DNA of 32,767 bases from positions 1 to 32,767 of the forward strand of contig JASJEA010000009.1 of the NCBI GenBank assembly GCA_030064935.1. The letters run 5' to 3'. The position numbers were made by a program, and so were the translations under genes. Below the pieces are notes generated by a model. It was given only the letters and a program-made list of their open reading frames with translations. It did not search any database and was not told the DNA's origin. Of this stretch, positions 200 through 10,405 are shown in pieces (position 1 is the stretch's first letter; every line of letters starts with the position of its first letter). Source of the DNA: Crocosphaera sp. Lineage in GTDB: Bacteria > Cyanobacteriota > Cyanobacteriia > Cyanobacteriales > Microcystaceae.

Positions 200-1150
200 C
201 TACAAATCTTCTTCCAACAATTCGCTGAGTTCTAACTGGTCGTTATTTCTGTTATCATCATAGATCATCAATGTGTTAAGGTTCTTATGCCTTGATAGTT
301 TTTGAACCTTGCGAACATCACCATCGCTTTTATCCAACGCTGTTGTAATGGATGAATGGCGAATCCTGTGAGGGCTCATCAACTTATCAATCCCTGCATC
401 CTTACAATAACAACGAACAATCTTATAGAGGCCATCCCCACTCAAACGACTTCCTCTGGAACGAGAATCCAGTGAGATGAACAAGGGTGAAGATGACTTA
501 ATCGCGAAACTCCCCCGTTCAGCCAACCAATCACAGATCGCCTTGATGGTTTTCGCCGACAAATCCACTGGTTCCTTCTCAGTTCTTCCTTTGCCTTTCA
601 CCCACAGTATGCGCCTCGATGGAATGAAATCCCCGATATCCAATAAACTCACCTCATTGCGTCGTAGAGCATTGGACCAAAATAACATCAACAACGCCCG
701 ATCTCGTTTACCCTTGAGAGTGGTTAGCTCACACAAAGCTAACACTTTCTTGAACTCAGCTAAGGGAATCCCGGATGTATCTCGATATGGTTTTAGTTTT
801 TCACTACTAACAGCATCTTTCAAGGAATATTGGCATAATCCTAAGCGATTCGCCGTACTGACAAAAGATTTAACCGAGCTAATCTTACGGTTAATGGTGG
901 TTGGGGCTAATCCCCGTCGCTTCAAAATCCCCTTGTAGGCCATTAACGCTGCGTTGGCTTGTGCTTGAGATACCATCAGAAAAGCACGGACTAAATCTTC
1001 GGTGACTTCTTTCCCAGACATCTGCTCAAAAAAATACCGTAAGTCCTTCTCGTATTCTCGGCGCGTCATGGCTGATGATTTATCCTCTAACCATAAGGAG
1101 ATCGCCTTAGCTATGGGGGATGAGTCTGAGTTAAAACGGGTTAGTTTCAC
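200..1150 (-). CDS. Tyrosine recombinase (phage integrase family, XerC/D-like)
   Basis: This 316-residue protein is a site-specific DNA recombinase that cuts and rejoins DNA through a covalent phosphotyrosine. Residues 10-110 look like the N-terminal SAM-like core-binding domain and 125-316 the catalytic domain. All expected catalytic residues are visible: Arg163 in ALRRNE, Lys185 or Lys187 in the WVKGKG hairpin, His261 and Arg264 in HRIRH, His288 in LSRH and nucleophile Tyr297 in LMIYDD. The length is normal for the Xer/integrase family and nothing looks broken. No excisionase or phage gene is next to it, so it may be a remnant of an integrated element or a solitary recombinase. The upstream gap holds two inverted repeats that could be binding or crossover sites. 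The family is clear; the substrate is unknown. Confidence 0.93.
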   Translation of the reverse strand: MKLTRFNSDSSPIAKAISLWLEDKSSAMTRREYEKDLRYFFEQMSGKEVTEDLVRAFLMVSQAQANAALMAYKGILKRRGLAPTTINRKISSVKSFVSTANRLGLCQYSLKDAVSSEKLKPYRDTSGIPLAEFKKVLALCELTTLKGKRDRALLMLFWSNALRRNEVSLLDIGDFIPSRRILWVKGKGRTEKEPVDLSAKTIKAICDWLAERGSFAIKSSSPLFISLDSRSRGSRLSGDGLYKIVRCYCKDAGIDKLMSPHRIRHSSITTALDKSDGDVRKVQKLSRHKNLNTLMIYDDNRNNDQLELSELLEEDL

Positions 1151-3906: not shown

Positions 3907-3993
3907 TGATTGACTTTGTAAGATAGAATATTTTTATATTCTCTATAGGCTAATTCATAATCTACATCTTTTTCAAGAAGTACATTGGTATTG

Positions 3994-6234
3994 ATGAACC
4001 AACAATCTTGGTGGCAGAAAAAACGCATAATTCTGGGAGCAATAACAATCAGTATAACTACATTGATTACACTGATGCGCTTTGTAGGATGGTTTCAAGG
4101 GTTAGAATTGGCTATCTATGATCGTTTTTGGTCAATGAAAGCGATCGCACAATGGGATAACACAATTGTTTTAGTGGGCTACGATGATGATGACGAGGCG
4201 AAGTACGGACATTACATTCCAGATCATGTTCTCACACAAGTTTTAAAAAAAGTGGAACGGGGTAATCCTGCTTTGGTAGGTTTATCATTGACACGACGAG
4301 ATGCTCCTGAAAATATTAATGATAGACAACAATTAGAAGCTCAAATGGAGGCAATGGGAAATTTTTCTGATCCCCTTAAAGAAAAACTTTATAAAACTAA
4401 GTGTATTCAAGAGAAAAAAAAATGCTCACAATTATTATTTCAAGTATCAGAAGAAGAAACTTTTCCAAAAGAGCCTGATAGTGTTCAGCGAAAAGCCAAG
4501 CTTTACAGAGATGATGATTATTCTGGATTTAGAATTAATCCGAATAGAAATCGTCATTTTGCATGGGAACTTGTTTTTCAATACTTGAAAAATAAAGAAG
4601 CTACTATCAATGAACCTGCCTCCATTTACAGTCCTATTACTATTACTTACCCCAAAGGAGATACTTCCCCCAAAGAAGAAACTGTCAAAATTTATCCTTT
4701 ATCACCCAGAAAAGACGGTGGATATAATGCCAATTTTTTAGATTTAAAGAATTTTCAGGTTCTAATATCTTGGATTAAAGAATCAACTCCTGAGTTGAGG
4801 TACTTTTCCTTTAAAAAAATACTTAATAGTCCTCCTAAAGATTTTGAAGGAAAAATTATCTTAATTGGACCTATAGCTCAATCATATCAAGCCAATGCTG
4901 ATTTGCCTGTTTATGGACAAAAAGATGTCTATACAAAACGTTATCATACTGAAATTATTGGGATTGTCGTTGGTAATTTACTGAATCAAGCAGAAACTCC
5001 ATTTGTACAAGTTTGGAATGATGAGCAGGAATATTTATTTTTGTGTTTATGGATGATAATATCAGGAATATTAGTAGAATTTATAGGAAAACAGTTAAAA
5101 TCAAAATATAATTGGTTAAAATTCACGTTCAAAATTATTATTGTTTGGTTTATACTGATTGGATTAATAGGTTTTATTAGTTTTAGAGCTTTCCCTTACT
5201 GGTGGATACCTCCTGGTTTTATCTGGGTTGGACTAACGGCTAATATAGTTTTATGTGGTATGACAAATTTAGGTATACAATTAGGGATCGAGCAGCAAAA
5301 CACTTTGGATGAAAAAAATAAAAGAATTAAAGAACAAGAGAAAAGACTCAAACAAAAAGAAATTTTAGAACAAGAAAAAGATAGAGAAATTGCTGAACTT
5401 AAAGAAACTTTGCTGGCGAAAGAAAGATTAGCTTTTTTTGGTAAATTAGCTCCTTTCATCCAACATAGAACATTAGGACTTTATGATTTATTTGCTTTAA
5501 ATATTACTGCTCAAAATAAAAAACTAACTAACCTAGAAGTTGAATTTGATACAATTCTAGAAATTTTAGAAGAACAAAATACTATTAATGAAAATGAAAT
5601 AGAGAATTATAAAAGTGAAATTTTGAATTTCATCAATTATGTCAGAGACAGAGGAAAAGATCAAAGAGATATTCTCAAACGAGGTAGTGAACTATTAAAT
5701 AGATTTCTTCCAATTTTTCGTCATAATAACGAACGGTATATAAACCCAGAAACAATAGATTTTAAAGAAATCGTCAAAGAGAGCATAAGAATTAATAAAT
5801 ATGATTTTGATCTCAATAAACAAAATTTTAATGTTAAACTAGAAATTGATACAGACGAGGAATTACCATCAATAAGAGGAATTCCCTCGGAATTAGAGTT
5901 TGCTTTGATTAATGTCATTGAAAATGCTTATTATGCCGTTTGGGAAAAAAGTAACACAGAACAAGACAACTACGAACCTACAGTTAAAATTAAAACTGAG
6001 AGATTTAAAGAAAATAAAATTCAAGTAATTATTATGGATAATGGAGTTGGATTACCTAAGAACAAAGACAAAGTTTTCTTGCCTTTTTATTCTACTAAAC
6101 AGAAGTTTCAAAAAACAGGTTTAGGACTAACTTTAACTAAAGATATGTTAGTAGAAAACTATCAAGGTAATATAAAATGTGAAACAATTGATGATTGGAC
6201 TTACTTTATTCTGGAATTGGGTTCCTCTCAATGA
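3994..6234 (+). CDS. CHASE2-domain sensor histidine kinase
   Basis: This membrane sensor kinase has about 746 residues from the ATG at 3994; an in-frame TTG at 3985 is an alternative. Order of parts: TM helix near residues 12-32, an extracytoplasmic CHASE2 domain to about 345 (early motif AIYDRFWSMK), three TM helices between about 350 and 435, a Glu/Lys-rich coiled coil to about 485, a dimerisation region, and a C-terminal HATPase_c. The N box (NVIENAYYAV, near 640), G1 (MDNGVGLP), F box (FLPFYSTKQ) and G2 (GLGL) are intact. The H box is odd: the candidate His (about 491) sits in PFIQHRTLG, without the usual His-Glu pair. The response-regulator gene follows 77 bp downstream on the same strand and is the likely partner. 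Confidence 0.88.
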   Translation: MNQQSWWQKKRIILGAITISITTLITLMRFVGWFQGLELAIYDRFWSMKAIAQWDNTIVLVGYDDDDEAKYGHYIPDHVLTQVLKKVERGNPALVGLSLTRRDAPENINDRQQLEAQMEAMGNFSDPLKEKLYKTKCIQEKKKCSQLLFQVSEEETFPKEPDSVQRKAKLYRDDDYSGFRINPNRNRHFAWELVFQYLKNKEATINEPASIYSPITITYPKGDTSPKEETVKIYPLSPRKDGGYNANFLDLKNFQVLISWIKESTPELRYFSFKKILNSPPKDFEGKIILIGPIAQSYQANADLPVYGQKDVYTKRYHTEIIGIVVGNLLNQAETPFVQVWNDEQEYLFLCLWMIISGILVEFIGKQLKSKYNWLKFTFKIIIVWFILIGLIGFISFRAFPYWWIPPGFIWVGLTANIVLCGMTNLGIQLGIEQQNTLDEKNKRIKEQEKRLKQKEILEQEKDREIAELKETLLAKERLAFFGKLAPFIQHRTLGLYDLFALNITAQNKKLTNLEVEFDTILEILEEQNTINENEIENYKSEILNFINYVRDRGKDQRDILKRGSELLNRFLPIFRHNNERYINPETIDFKEIVKESIRINKYDFDLNKQNFNVKLEIDTDEELPSIRGIPSELEFALINVIENAYYAVWEKSNTEQDNYEPTVKIKTERFKENKIQVIIMDNGVGLPKNKDKVFLPFYSTKQKFQKTGLGLTLTKDMLVENYQGNIKCETIDDWTYFILELGSSQ

Positions 6235-6311: not shown

Positions 6312-7196
6312 ATGGCTAGCAAAATCCTAATTGTTGAAGATATAACAGAATACCAAGATTTATATAATGATCTTTTTGCTGACTCAATACAAAAAAAATG
6401 GTATTCTATAAAGTATGCAGTAACCGGAGAAGAAGCTTTAGAATTAATAAAAAAAGATAGAAAACAAGAAATTGCTCTAATAGTTTTAGATCTACGTCTA
6501 GAGAATGCTCTCATTGACGGAGTTGCATTAGCTAATGTATTGGCTGAGAACCATATAGATAAAAAAATTATTATTTGGACAGGTTTTCCACAGTGGAAAA
6601 CAGGATTTACAGAAGAAGCTGAAAAAAATATTATTAAACTTATCAAGCGTACTGAATATCCTCATGAATTTTTAAAGGATCTCTGTGATATCTTTATGAT
6701 AGGTAATCAATTTGAAGTACCTGGTTCACAAGCTATTGATAAGGACTCTAAATTATTGGGCTATCCAACAATCCGAAAATTGGTAAAAACGCTTCCGTCT
6801 GAATTCCGTTATCAGTTAATTGAGGAGATTCTCCCTTTTTTTCCTGTATATATGTTACTAGATATGGAGAAAACTTTACCCTCAAAAATAAGAAAAATTC
6901 TTGAGGAAGCCACTGAAAGAGATACATTAAAACAGTGGATAATAAAAAAACAACAAGCAGGTTTTTTTTCTGATATTCCCCCCGCAGCAGAAGTAGATGA
7001 CTTTATGATTGAAATTGTTGAAAAAATCAAAAAGAAAACTGGAAGGTATTATGAAGATTTCTTTTTAAGAGGTTCACATTATGGGAAAAGATTCTCTAGA
7101 TATATTGCTAAAGATTTAGTGAAAGAACTTCCTCCTGAATTTAGACAAAGGAATGGGGCTAAAGTAATCTATAAATCTGCTCCTAGAGAAATTTAA
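6312..7196 (+). CDS. Response regulator, receiver domain with unrecognised C-terminal region
   Basis: Residues 1-130 form a CheY-like receiver: acidic pair Glu9-Asp10 (LIVEDIT), phospho-acceptor Asp60 (IVLDLRL), Thr90 (IIIWTG) and a candidate Lys112. Residues 145-294 match no output domain I know; there is no HTH, GGDEF or HD motif. This part contains two related segments, LVKTLPSEFRYQ (157-168) and LVKELPPEFRQR (269-280), suggesting an internal helical repeat. The gene starts 77 bp after the CHASE2 kinase, with an AT-rich inverted repeat (6237-6279) between them, so the two probably form one two-component system. The output could be protein-protein rather than transcriptional. The 3' end overlaps a small minus-strand gene by 14 bp. 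Confidence 0.85.
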   Translation: MASKILIVEDITEYQDLYNDLFADSIQKKWYSIKYAVTGEEALELIKKDRKQEIALIVLDLRLENALIDGVALANVLAENHIDKKIIIWTGFPQWKTGFTEEAEKNIIKLIKRTEYPHEFLKDLCDIFMIGNQFEVPGSQAIDKDSKLLGYPTIRKLVKTLPSEFRYQLIEEILPFFPVYMLLDMEKTLPSKIRKILEEATERDTLKQWIIKKQQAGFFSDIPPAAEVDDFMIEIVEKIKKKTGRYYEDFFLRGSHYGKRFSRYIAKDLVKELPPEFRQRNGAKVIYKSAPREI

Positions 7197-7554: not shown

Positions 7555-7797
7555 TCATTGATCTTCAGAAGGTATTTCATCTAGTTGGCATTGTAACAAC
7601 TGGCAAAGTTTTTTAGTTTGACCAATTGTTAAGGTAGGTATGGCTTTTGACGTTTCCCAATTAGACACTGTTTGACTGGTAACACCTAACTCACTAGCCA
7701 GTTTTTTTTGAGTTAAGCCTAGCGACCTTCGCCTTAACAATAGCCACTCACCTAAACCAACTTTCAATCTCAATACCCAATTCAATAGATTAATCAT
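7555..7797 (-). CDS. XRE-family helix-turn-helix regulator, 80 aa
   Basis: Almost the whole 80-residue protein is one Cro/C1-type DNA-binding domain. LTQKKLASELGVTSQTVSNW is the HTH with recognition helix, followed by ETSKAIPTLT as in many XRE proteins. There is no extra effector domain. The ATG at 7797 follows a good Shine-Dalgarno (TAGGAG). It is transcribed away from the structured leader at 8064-8189, so the shared gap 7798-8189 could hold its operator. It could be an antitoxin or autorepressor paired with the next small gene; this is inference from gene order. Confidence 0.85.
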   Translation of the reverse strand: MINLLNWVLRLKVGLGEWLLLRRRSLGLTQKKLASELGVTSQTVSNWETSKAIPTLTIGQTKKLCQLLQCQLDEIPSEDQ

Positions 7798-7914
7798 AAT
7801 CTCCTACGGGTACTAAATTACGTTTGGTTGACTAAAATAAGAATAGCATAATAAAAATGAAATTGATAATCTAAAATAGATTTATACAAAATCGATATTT
7901 TTTATTGATACAAA

Positions 7915-7950
7915 TAGCACCTCTGCCTAGTTTAAGGGGCAGAGGTGCTA
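7915..7950. repeat. 13-bp perfect hairpin without T-tract
   Basis: TAGCACCTCTGCC (7915-7927) is exactly complementary to 7938-7950, with a 10-nt loop. Neither strand has a following T-run, so a Rho-independent terminator is unlikely. It may be an operator, a mobile-element end or part of a structured RNA. Confidence 0.6.
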
Positions 7951-8028
7951 CGACTGGGAAGAATTATTATAAGCTTCTCAAGAATAATCGAGTTTACTTC
8001 GTGTATTTCACAGGGAAGTGGTGTATAA

Positions 8029-8057
8029 TTACCACTGTGAAAGTTTAAATGTATAAT
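8029..8057 (+). promoter_or_regulatory. Candidate sigma70-type promoter for the coiled-coil gene
   Basis: A perfect TATAAT at 8052-8057 is 17 bp from TTACCA at 8029-8034 (4 of 6 to consensus). Transcription would begin near 8064, just before the run of hairpins. The -35 box overlaps the right arm of the hairpin at 8007-8041. Confidence 0.45.
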
Positions 8058-8063
8058 AGAAAT

Positions 8064-8189
8064 GATAGCACAAACGATGTCGTTTGCTGCGCCTAATTTG
8101 TATGGCGCAGAAATGCAGCCCTGTAAAGACTGCATTGCCGGAACCGTCCTCAAAAACGATGCTGTAAAACAGCTTGAGGAGGTGTAGTG
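8064..8189 (+). promoter_or_regulatory. Structured 5' leader: four tandem hairpins, last one covers the SD
   Basis: Four hairpins follow one another with almost no spacer: 8071-8086 (7-bp stem, 2-nt loop as drawn), 8087-8110 (CTGCGCC/GGCGCAG), 8112-8136 (AATGCAG/CTGCATT) and 8148-8179 (CCTCAA/TTGAGG outside GCTGT/ACAGC). The right arm of the last one includes the first half of the Shine-Dalgarno GAGGAGGTG (8176-8184), so folding would hide the ribosome site of the gene starting at 8190. This suggests a translational switch, protein-binding leader or autoregulatory RNA. It fits no riboswitch class that I recognise. Confidence 0.55.
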
Positions 8190-9005
8190 ATGTTTCCAAA
8201 GTACAGCATTGTTAATTACGTCGAATTTGGCCGTGATTGCCGCGAAAAGAAAGCCACCTTACCAAGCAAGGAATGGAAGCAATTCAAAGACCGTTGGGGG
8301 GACTTAGTGGAGCAATCCATAAAAATAGCAGATTGGTGGGAAAGGTTAACCAAGGAGTGGCGAGAAAAAATCTCAGAACTTCCCTTCGACATCATTGATA
8401 GAAGTGGTTTGTCGAAACTAACGCAAGTGCCCTTCGATGCCATCAACGAATGGTACAGTAACATTAAGGCATCCTTAGACGAACAGGGATATCTTCGTTG
8501 CAAAGATTTAGGAGGCATGGCCTCAGAGTTCATATTCAAACCCATTACCCACCTCAAACTAGGTGACACACTCACAGAAGAGGATTTGAGCTTCGTTAGT
8601 GAAAAATATCAGTTAACCCCTGAACAACTCGATACCTTAAAAAGTGAAATCTCAGAACTGGATTCTAAGCCTCTGGTTGAACATCTGCTCAAAGCATTGA
8701 AAAAGATGCAATTAGATCCGTTCCTTATTCTATTAAAAGGAGATCGCCAAATTTGGAAGCTAACCTTGCAACTTGAAGAGGAGCAATCTCAACGAAAGCA
8801 ACTAGAACAAAAGTATCAACAATACCAGGAAAAGGTAAGCCAAGAAATAAAACAAGCTTTACAACAACAAGCACAATTCTATGAGTCCAAACTCCGAGAG
8901 CATGAGCAAAGGATAGCCCAATTAGAAAAGTCGAAGCAAAAAGCCAAGAGTAAGAACAGAAATGCTCTTGCAGTAGTACAAGGACTAGAAAAGTTGACGG
9001 GGTGA
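8190..9005 (+). CDS. Unrecognised protein with C-terminal coiled coil (possibly 3'-truncated)
   Basis: I do not recognise this family. From the ATG at 8190 (excellent Shine-Dalgarno GAGGAGGTG, 5 nt spacing; the GTG at 8187 is too close) the product has 271 residues. The N-terminal 90 residues are rich in Trp, Lys and Glu (DWWERLTKEWREKI); 90-185 looks helical; about 190-258 is a Gln/Glu/Lys-rich coiled coil. The tail is GLEKLTG. The last codons and the TGA stop fall within the 26-bp inverted-repeat arm 8994-9019 next to the IS4 transposase. The natural C-terminus may therefore have been cut off by an insertion, or the repeat may be a native part of the gene end. The leader is highly structured. 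No function is proposed. Confidence 0.75.
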   Translation: MFPKYSIVNYVEFGRDCREKKATLPSKEWKQFKDRWGDLVEQSIKIADWWERLTKEWREKISELPFDIIDRSGLSKLTQVPFDAINEWYSNIKASLDEQGYLRCKDLGGMASEFIFKPITHLKLGDTLTEEDLSFVSEKYQLTPEQLDTLKSEISELDSKPLVEHLLKALKKMQLDPFLILLKGDRQIWKLTLQLEEEQSQRKQLEQKYQQYQEKVSQEIKQALQQQAQFYESKLREHEQRIAQLEKSKQKAKSKNRNALAVVQGLEKLTG

Positions 9006-9019
9006 CAAGAGTTGGAAAA
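8994..9019 (+). repeat. 26-bp inverted repeat, left arm
   Basis: TTGACGGGGTGACAAGAGTT plus GGAAAA is repeated exactly in inverted orientation at 10588-10613. It holds the last codons and the stop of the coiled-coil gene. Similarity ends abruptly on both sides of both copies. Confidence 0.9.
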
Positions 9020-9190
9020 AACGGATCAAATAACGGTTTCAGAATCTGAGTTGACTAAAAAATCAACCCTCTTAATAAGTAGTGATGATAATTAAGCGGT
9101 TTATGATAATCTAGCTTGATATAATGATGGCGAAGATTATCGACTTAATTTCTATCAGTTTTTAATTTCAAAAATTGGACATAACAAACT

Positions 9191-9221
9191 GAGCAATTAG
9201 TCTTGATTGCTCCCCTTTTTT
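9191..9221 (+). terminator. Rho-independent terminator
   Basis: GAGCAAT (9191-9197) pairs with ATTGCTC (9206-9212) around an 8-nt loop, and a run of six T follows at 9216-9221 after CCC. It would stop plus-strand transcription from the coiled-coil gene before it runs antisense through the transposase. Confidence 0.75.
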
Positions 9222-9250: not shown

Positions 9251-10405
9251 TTAACTAATAGCAGTTAAAGCTTTTAATCCTTGTTTATACTCATTGGTTT
9301 TATGCCAATTTAATTTCATCAATTCTTCGGTTATACCAGAACAAAAATCCCAAGCTAATACCCAACTCTGTCCATACAACCCCACCCAGAAGTCGCTATG
9401 TCGTCTTACCTGTCTTTTCGGTTCAGTTAGCCTAGAAATATATTTTTGATAGCCTTTATTCTTGATTGACTTACCTTTTAAAGCTGAGGCTGTGTAAGCG
9501 ATCGCTATTAATAAAATTAGGTTAGTAAGCCTGTGGGTATTCGCTTTGCTCCCTTCAAGGTTATAGCCACCACTTTTATAATCTCGGAACATGGCCTCAA
9601 TTCCGCCCCTCATTTTATAATAGTTTATTACTTCTGATGGGTCATCTAAATTGGTGATAATAAACCAAGGTTCTTCTTCACTATGGTTTTTATATTTCCT
9701 CTTTTTATAAGCTAATACATTGAAGCGACCAAACCCTTTCTTTTTGGTGACAAAAATGTTTTTTTCAAAAACTTTTACTCCTGGGGTTAGTTCTAAATCT
9801 TGAAACCGTTTCTCGTTTTTCTTACTCCTTCTAATATAGACATCTTTGCGCTCTCGAAAAGCAAAGTAGATGGGATTTTTAGCTGTTCGATTTCGTTGCT
9901 TTAACCAATATGATAATTCTACCCCATGAAATTCTCTATCTCCTAAAATTAATAATTCATAGTGAGAAAATAATCTCAAGACTGGTCGAATTAAAGCTAT
10001 TTGTTCTTTAAGGTTGCTGCTACCTTTTTTCTCTAAAATTTGCCAGTAAATAGGTAGCGATCGCTTTCTCCAAACAACACTAATCATGAACACATTTTTG
10101 TCTTGCCACTGAGTTCTATCTAAAACTAAAGTTAATCGACTTCCTGGTTTAAACTCCCGTTCTACTATTAATTTTATTAGAGGAAACCAAAATAAGACAA
10201 GGCTTAAGCACGGTTCAACTAAAAATCTTTGAATCTTTTTTCTTCGACTTTGATGTAAAATAGGAATAGGAAGATAAGCTGCTAACCTTTCTATTCTAAC
10301 CTGTTTATGAACTTGTAAAAGCCATACTAATATACGTAAAAGTAAGAACTTACTTTTTGATAATGCGTTCTGTAAATAGTCCTGATAGAAGGGCAAAAAG
10401 TCCAT
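9251..10405 (-). CDS. IS4-family DDE transposase
   Basis: This 384-residue transposase moves the IS by cut-and-paste. Catalytic Asp residues are in VLDRTQW and ILGDREFHG. The family signature Y-x2-R-x3-E-x6-K is exact in YYKMRGGIEAMFRDYK and supplies the catalytic Glu. The N-terminal 90 residues are basic and probably bind the terminal repeats. The frame is open throughout and the length is normal, so it could be active. It is transcribed against the coiled-coil gene. Closely similar copies are likely elsewhere in such genomes; this cannot be seen here. Confidence 0.95.
   Translation of the reverse strand: MDFLPFYQDYLQNALSKSKFLLLRILVWLLQVHKQVRIERLAAYLPIPILHQSRRKKIQRFLVEPCLSLVLFWFPLIKLIVEREFKPGSRLTLVLDRTQWQDKNVFMISVVWRKRSLPIYWQILEKKGSSNLKEQIALIRPVLRLFSHYELLILGDREFHGVELSYWLKQRNRTAKNPIYFAFRERKDVYIRRSKKNEKRFQDLELTPGVKVFEKNIFVTKKKGFGRFNVLAYKKRKYKNHSEEEPWFIITNLDDPSEVINYYKMRGGIEAMFRDYKSGGYNLEGSKANTHRLTNLILLIAIAYTASALKGKSIKNKGYQKYISRLTEPKRQVRRHSDFWVGLYGQSWVLAWDFCSGITEELMKLNWHKTNEYKQGLKALTAIS

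Follow-up and report, generated by a model that had tools for sequence, protein, structure and literature searches.

The leader that separates a kinase/response-regulator pair from a coiled-coil protein gene in Crocosphaera sp. is spanned by an open reading frame (ORF). We tentatively propose, with confidence that falls just short of even, that it is a regulatory upstream ORF (a leader cistron) of 41-51 codons, which belongs to the kinase/regulator cassette and is translationally coupled to the next gene. The ORF is present in three species, where its position and its bases are conserved, and in two of the three computed folding occludes the Shine-Dalgarno (SD) sequence of the next gene. That the ORF is translated, that coupling takes place and that its conserved 5' block acts as the control point is what we infer from this arrangement. 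Throughout, the window is the whole 32.8-kb stretch (32,767 nt) of Crocosphaera sp. DNA that was analysed.

An open reading frame spans the leader

The frame, the SD sequence and the gene that follows are placed as listed here.

8062-8187, plus strand: upstream ORF, MIAQTMSFAAPNLYGAEMQPCKDCIAGTVLKNDAVKQLEEV, of 41 codons and a TAG stop codon (8185-8187), with homologous frames in genomes G002 and G003
8176-8184, plus strand: SD sequence, GAGGAGGTG, coinciding with the final three sense codons of that ORF
8187-9005, plus strand: coiled-coil protein gene, starting at GTG 8187 or at ATG 8190

The stop codon of the ORF shares one base with GTG 8187; relative to the alternative start, ATG 8190, it lies two bases upstream. 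The homologous frames have 51 codons in G002 and 47 in G003, and in both a GTG lies one base past the leader stop (TAG-N-GTG). All three frames terminate in (G/A)AGGAG(G/A)TGTAG, and each ends at or near the downstream start, as translational coupling demands. The frame is conserved as an open frame in all three leaders, with lengths of 123, 153 and 141 nt (window, G002 and G003), every one a multiple of three. Because the window frame stays open in 10% of dinucleotide shuffles, the single sequence proves nothing by itself; for the three leaders in turn, the fraction of shuffles that stayed open was 0.10, 0.07 and 0.11 over the whole frame and 0.36, 0.25 and 0.30 over its non-conserved middle. 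The start codon and the next three codons are identical in all three leaders, and nine of these 12 nt lie outside predicted stems. No SD sequence was visible by eye before ATG 8062.

The original prediction had described this leader as a hairpin RNA. Its four stems are there, but the leader is not plainly non-coding, as 8062-8184 is a single open frame. That frame had been overlooked, and it makes unfolding driven by ribosomes the likelier mechanism.

The leader is found in three genomes of the genus

A search with the 41-residue leader protein matched G002 at 65% identity over 20 residues, directly upstream of a coiled-coil homologue (E 0.06), and G003 at 57% identity over 21 residues (E 0.11). 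Since these E-values are weak, the case for homology is built on the full frames, on synteny and on a later profile search. The leader protein profile gave strong matches in three of 388 genomes of the order (E <= 1.2e-22); the next match had an E-value of 0.0068, and at E <= 0.5 matches were found in 103 of the 388. An RNA model of the leader gave three strong and 16 weak matches in 50 genomes of the family. Five of the weak ones were examined, of which three lay inside long forward ORFs and two were dismissed by eye. The leader DNA pattern was present in three of the 50 family genomes. The leader was thus found in three Crocosphaera-type genomes of the same genus: the window genome (G000), G002 and G003.

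Searching a contig collection with the DNA pattern returned four matches, namely the Crocosphaera MAGs L039 and L040 and two unrelated bacteria; the G002 and G003 leader loci recur letter for letter in Crocosphaera sp. MAG contigs. Viral contigs gave no match to the pattern. An origin as a mobile element or repeat was considered and rejected, as the leader is single copy in the genome and, in each of the three species, sits at an equivalent position behind the regulator. An Rfam scan of the window, L036 and L035 yielded no match at or above the curated threshold, the one sub-threshold match scoring 15.9 bits against a cut-off of 34.5. This agrees with the earlier statement that no riboswitch with such a layout is known.

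The bases of the leader are conserved beyond its codons

Within the cassette, the highest conservation was found at the start of the ORF.

8062-8109, plus strand: 5' block of 48 nt with a three-way identity of 0.77

The identity of the 5' block (77%) exceeds the maximum of 75% reached by 393 overlapping ungapped windows of the regulator and kinase genes, whose mean three-way identities were 0.41 and 0.40, the G002 kinase being partial. Across the leader ORF, three-way identity at codon positions 1, 2 and 3 was 0.53, 0.55 and 0.65, and the pairwise values were 0.68/0.68/0.73, 0.62/0.65/0.70 and 0.66/0.68/0.70. In the regulator gene conservation is highest at the second codon position and lowest at the third (pairwise 0.52/0.74/0.45, 0.55/0.73/0.48 and 0.49/0.66/0.41). 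The leader ORF therefore lacks the substitution pattern of a protein-coding gene, a pattern that short regulatory upstream ORFs need not show.

Invariant residues keep an identical codon in 10 of 13 cases in the leader, compared to 61 of 160 in the regulator and kinase (p 0.0075). Within the first 16 leader codons, a range chosen post hoc, 8 of 9 invariant residues keep their codon (p 0.004) and 4 of 5 fourfold sites are identical, compared to 6 of 43 (p 0.005). This excess shows that bases, besides residues, are under selection in the leader. Selection at the protein level alone is unlikely from these comparisons.

Four hairpins in the window leader and their conservation

The hairpins of the window leader are as follows.

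8071-8086, plus strand: hairpin 1 (H1), stems 8071-8077/8080-8086, an exact inverted repeat that is also in the minimum free energy (MFE) fold
8087-8110, plus strand: hairpin 2 (H2), stems 8087-8093/8104-8110, an exact inverted repeat that is also in the MFE fold
8112-8136, plus strand: hairpin 3 (H3), stems 8112-8118/8130-8136, an exact inverted repeat
8147-8180, plus strand: hairpin 4 (H4), stems 8147-8153/8174-8180 and an inner stem 8161-8173, overlapping part of the SD sequence

The four consecutive hairpins of the original prediction are real, both as exact inverted repeats and in folding. The MFE fold of 8050-8200 consists of the same four (-46.2 kcal/mol, z -3.52), and none of 200 shuffles was equally stable. 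An inverted-repeat search placed the H2 stems within a 90% repeat (8084-8093/8104-8113). Against dinucleotide shuffles the window leader had a z of -3.77, within a range of -3.5 to -3.8 for the window. When both strands of the 32.8-kb sequence were tiled into 467 segments of 140 nt, with 30 shuffles each, the leader ranked seventh by fold z, and seven of the 467 had z <= -3.5. Three of the six segments that outrank it fall in 7897-8176. The fold of the window leader is unusual, yet it was selected out of many segments.

A separate, perfect 13-bp hairpin, TAGCACCTCTGCC/GGCAGAGGTGCTA, was observed at 7915-7950, between a small HTH gene and the leader. It lies within the most stable of the 467 segments (z -5.7 and -5.9 on the two strands) and occurs as a single copy across nine genomes of the genus, in the window's own genome.

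The four-hairpin architecture did not hold up well in the homologues. H2 is best conserved, with 20 of 21 pair cells formed and two C-G to U-G changes. H1 forms 15 of 18 pair cells; four of its six pairs are formed in all three leaders, none covaries and the stem shrinks. The outer stem of H4 keeps 16 of 18 pair cells, with one change on both sides, and its inner stem is lost. H3, which overlaps the length-variable part of the leader, is not kept. The original prediction was to be refuted by stems that neither covary nor are conserved among homologues, and the architecture largely fails by this standard. Covariation did not support the stems: the one pair that changed on both sides was equalled in 337 of 500 shuffles, at the low power of only three sequences. 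The two homologous leaders had shuffle z-scores of -0.55 and -0.99, about the level of the shuffles themselves. The named stems pair in 89.5% of cells, compared to 35-47% when slid, a comparison that favours stems derived from one of these sequences. Collectively, these results indicate that the four-hairpin look is largely a property of the window species, and that H2 and some SD pairing are shared.

The SD sequence is occluded in computed folds of two species

The counterparts of the window SD are GAGGAGGTGTAG in G002 and AAGGAGATGTAG in G003. In the computed ensemble the six-base SD core of the window is about 4% unpaired on average. We compared each leader with 500 synonymous recodings, applying the codon usage of 19 window ORFs to all three. 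The unpaired fraction of the SD was 0.04 in the window, 0.01 in G002 and 0.28 in G003, and the means of the recoded versions were 0.32, 0.22 and 0.17, respectively. Burial of the SD was significant in the window (p 0.006) and in G002 (p 0.022); in G003 it was not, since 81% of the recoded versions were at least as closed. Stability relative to the recodings had a z of -3.04 in the window (p 0.006), -1.21 in G002 (p 0.12) and -1.38 in G003 (p 0.10). The computed cost of forcing the SD open was 3.7 kcal/mol in the window and 5.2 kcal/mol in each of G002 and G003. In these models the SD is specially hidden in two of the three species, the window and G002, and not in G003. The earlier claim that the leader hides the SD is thereby supported, by computed folding, for these two, where occlusion goes beyond the synonymous-codon null.

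The window fold around the SD depends on how much of the next gene is included. In RNA from 8036, the probability of H4 was near 1 with an end at 8190, 8196, 8204 or 8210, and fell to 0.76 with an end at 8214 and to 0.36 with an end at 8230. Region 8155-8166 is complementary to 8202-8213 at 11 of 12 positions. This pairing crosses H4 and wins in the longer RNA, where 8155-8165/8203-8213, joining the loop side of H4 to the start of the next gene, rises to 0.64 at end 8230. The SD core (8178-8182) nevertheless stays 85-97% paired in RNA to 8230, its partner in the second fold being 8193-8197. The SD is therefore predicted to be hidden in either window fold, through different partners. We considered the 8155-8165/8203-8213 pairing as an 'on' state and rejected it: although real in the ensemble, it leaves the SD core engaged with 8193-8197. 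By eye, no counterpart of this pairing was seen in G002. Two competing folds, as the originally proposed on and off states would call for, were recovered in the window, but both leave most of the SD core paired and so do not clearly represent an on and an off state.

These folds bear on the possibility that the leader is a non-coding structured RNA, in which H1 and H2 bind a protein or ligand, the SD region shifts between folds and the open frame is incidental. The two competing folds around the window SD, the exceptional stability of the window leader, the retention of H2 and of the named stems, the flat codon-position pattern and the kept synonymous codons would all suit such an RNA. It is contradicted by homologous leaders that are not unusually stable, by the loss of H3 and inner H4, by covariation no better than in shuffles, by the invariance of the unpaired ATGATAGCA and by three open frames whose lengths are multiples of three. 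We regard this explanation as unlikely, with a real chance of being right.

A recurring dyad lies upstream of the leader start

Two promoter-like features precede the ORF.

8017-8036, plus strand: inverted repeat AGTGGT-GTATAATT-ACCACT of 20 nt, enclosing a TATAAT box at 8024-8029
8052-8057, plus strand: second TATAAT box, which with TTACCA at 8029-8034 scores 10/12 in a consensus scan

The dyad at 8017-8036 may be an operator or promoter element, or a fifth hairpin if it is transcribed from upstream or the cassette is one transcript. A perfect dyad of 6-7 bp is present in all three genomes, with its 3' arm ending 23-26 nt before the leader ATG. Equally long stems arose at this position in 55, 12 and 92 of 2000 shuffles of the three genomes. 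When aligned by the dyad, the G002 arms differ symmetrically from those of the window; MAFFT puts them out of register, and we therefore did not count the difference as covariation. Among nine genomes of the genus, the operator pattern matched in the window and G003 and once, imperfectly, in G001, and a backward control matched once, in G003.

Near the leader, the consensus scan reports only the 8029-8057 site and not the 8024-8029 box, and promoter-like sites are no more numerous than in shuffles (2 compared to 2.8). The TATAAT-type promoter of the original prediction is uncertain, with two boxes as candidates. Use of the 8052-8057 box would put the start of transcription at or after the ORF ATG; this poses the chief challenge to the interpretation as an ORF.

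A small HTH_3 protein gene (7555-7797, minus strand) lies between the regulator and the leader in the window and is not so placed in G002 and G003; it has one distant second match in the genome. Its product could act locally to repress the dyad promoter.

Conservation might instead act only on the DNA and on initiation, through an operator or promoter dyad and a conserved start, with chance hairpins in one species and an ORF without regulatory role. We find this rather unlikely. That each of the three genomes carries a dyad at roughly equal distance from the ATG fits it, as do the confinement of exceptional folding to the window species and the seven of 467 segments that reach the same z. It leaves the conserved 48-nt block, which lies downstream of the dyad and includes the ORF start, unaccounted for, together with the SD burial that, in two of the three species, goes beyond that of synonymous recodings.

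The leader peptide and the coiled-coil protein

The three leader peptides share 14 invariant residues, including one Cys, and those of G002 and G003 are 49% and 40% identical to the window protein. They could constitute a functional small protein, MIAQT[ML]xFA...YGA...C..., coupled to the next gene, with the RNA folds as by-products. Survival of the ORF in G003, a genome that yielded no match to the coiled-coil gene, is in keeping with this idea. We nevertheless consider it improbable, as the third codon positions are no more variable than the other two, the middle of the peptide varies in length and sequence, no Pfam match was obtained and strong matches occur in only three genomes.

The coiled-coil protein was matched in nine of 148 relatives, counting its own genome, and coiled-coil-protein queries of genome contigs, plasmids and viral contigs gave no further homologues. 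No Pfam family was found above cut-off, no RNA-binding domain was found and no solved structure matched the family. A structural model built from two sequences (mean pLDDT 70.6, pTM 0.36) contains helices and a long C-terminal helix at residues 183-270. The original description of a coiled coil without known family is borne out by the Pfam result and, in this low-confidence model, by the long helix. PADLOC gave one weak LeoA match (E 0.002) that ends in the coiled-coil stretch, and we did not count it as evidence.

The leader and the coiled-coil protein do not always occur together. G003 has the leader and no match to the protein, and G005 and G006 have a homologue of the protein, with neither the leader pattern nor this regulator found. 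The frame after the G003 leader begins VIFTIHQ, which can be compared with VIFTIDQ of the G002 downstream gene, and is only 23 codons long; coupling would thus lack an evident downstream gene in this genome. The leader thus appears to follow the regulator rather than the coiled-coil protein. This weakens the earlier suggestion of autoregulation, in which the protein would repress its own synthesis by binding to the leader, a very improbable reading that position alone favours and that this distribution and the lack of a detected RNA-binding domain oppose.

Several features of these loci were noted by eye. The G002 post-leader gene resembles a fusion of the N-terminal part of the coiled-coil family with another C-terminal part (L036/L040), and the latter is shared with an ORF located some 290 nt past the leader ATG in G003 (L035/L039). 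Upstream of the G005 and G006 homologues, a different stretch, TATGGTTGCGATA, is common to both and lies within short ORFs (L005, L006). The homologues in L007, L008 and L011 have N-terminal extensions (MITHT..., MLAQSQ...) slightly like the start of the leader ORF; these short extensions are possibly a fused leader.

The leader accompanies a kinase and a response regulator

Two genes accompany the leader.

3985-6234, plus strand: CHASE2 histidine kinase with CHASE2 and HATPase_c domains (Pfam)
6312-7196, plus strand: response regulator with a receiver domain and a C-terminal part without assigned domain

The gene order kinase, response regulator, leader is the same in all three genomes. The G003 kinase has CHASE2 and HATPase_c; the G002 kinase shows HATPase_c only, its stretch starting after the CHASE2 region. 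The distance from the regulator stop to the leader ATG is 83 nt in G002, 87 nt in G003 and 865 nt in the window, where the gap includes the small HTH gene on the opposite strand. The regulator was found in four of nine genomes of the genus at E <= 1e-10 (the window genome, G002, G003 and G008). The G008 match breaks off at residue 227 of 294, at the first bases of the contig, so the leader there cannot be judged. The distribution across these few genomes is suggestive of a leader that goes with the regulator, not with the coiled-coil protein. By eye, the G006 coiled-coil homologue follows a different receiver-domain-like gene.

Pfam gave only the receiver domain, and no ANTAR domain, in the window and G002 regulators. 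In a fold search with the regulator, the best 50 matches listed were nearly all receiver domains or receiver-containing proteins, and the C-terminal part was not identified. The C-terminal part might bind the invariant 5' block (start codon and H1-H2) and so set leader translation, in which case the two-component system would gate the coupled upstream ORF and its output gene; we judge this quite improbable.

The stretch that carries the cassette is flanked by a DDE transposase gene (9251-10405, minus strand; Pfam DDE_Tnp_1) and, on the other side, by a tyrosine recombinase gene (200-1150, minus strand; Pfam Phage_integrase).

Proposed mechanism and relation to known systems

In the coupled upstream ORF that we propose, RNA at the 3' end of the ORF would fold so that the SD of the next gene, which is made of the last codons of the ORF, is paired. 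A ribosome reading the ORF to its stop would open this structure, and at the adjacent start codon the same ribosome would re-initiate or a new one would take over. If the leader were not translated, expression of the next gene would stay low. The conserved 5' block (start codon, H1 and H2) probably sets how often the leader is translated. Counting against this proposal, H4 ceases to be the preferred fold of the window RNA when this extends 40 nt into the next gene. We lowered our confidence because H4 is conditional and because G003 has no evident downstream gene.

Control by translation through a coupled leader ORF is a known kind of regulation. Coupling with hidden start regions is established, with RNA-unfolding and scanning/reinitiation models described (PMC12548453, PMC6728339). 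The Crocosphaera leader resembles those gene pairs in having the SD inside the upstream ORF, here predicted to be paired, and in its adjacent or overlapping stop and start. It differs in that the partner is an ORF of 41-51 codons that is conserved at the nucleotide level and is not protein-like, and in that coupling is predicted.

Short regulatory ORFs in structured leaders are likewise known (PMC12121999, PMC8092293, PMC11260477, PMC10272879). The toiL upstream ORF of E. coli topAI is also short, and its leader is proposed to fold so as to block the ribosome-binding site downstream (PMC12121999). Derepression there is proposed to act via ribosome stalling, whereas the Crocosphaera leader has no known stalling signal or Rho step. 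The metE and ppe2 upstream ORFs of Mycobacterium tuberculosis, which are translated, are short ORFs in structured leaders with B12 riboswitches (PMC11260477); no riboswitch family was detected in the Crocosphaera leader. The Corynebacterium ilvB-II motif is similarly a candidate structured RNA that was re-read as a conserved leader upstream ORF (PMC10272879). For ilvB-II, transcription attenuation and a peptide rich in branched-chain residues are proposed. In contrast, the Crocosphaera leader has no plus-strand terminator-like site in 7900-9200, as an attenuator would need, and inspection of its peptide by eye revealed no branched-chain amino acid enrichment.

Together, these observations add a compact candidate from cyanobacteria to the cases of control through upstream ORFs and tie it to a two-component pair; they also illustrate how a reading frame can go unnoticed where hairpins are closely packed. 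If the leader is indeed the target of the regulator, the output of a CHASE2 system would become testable with one reporter.
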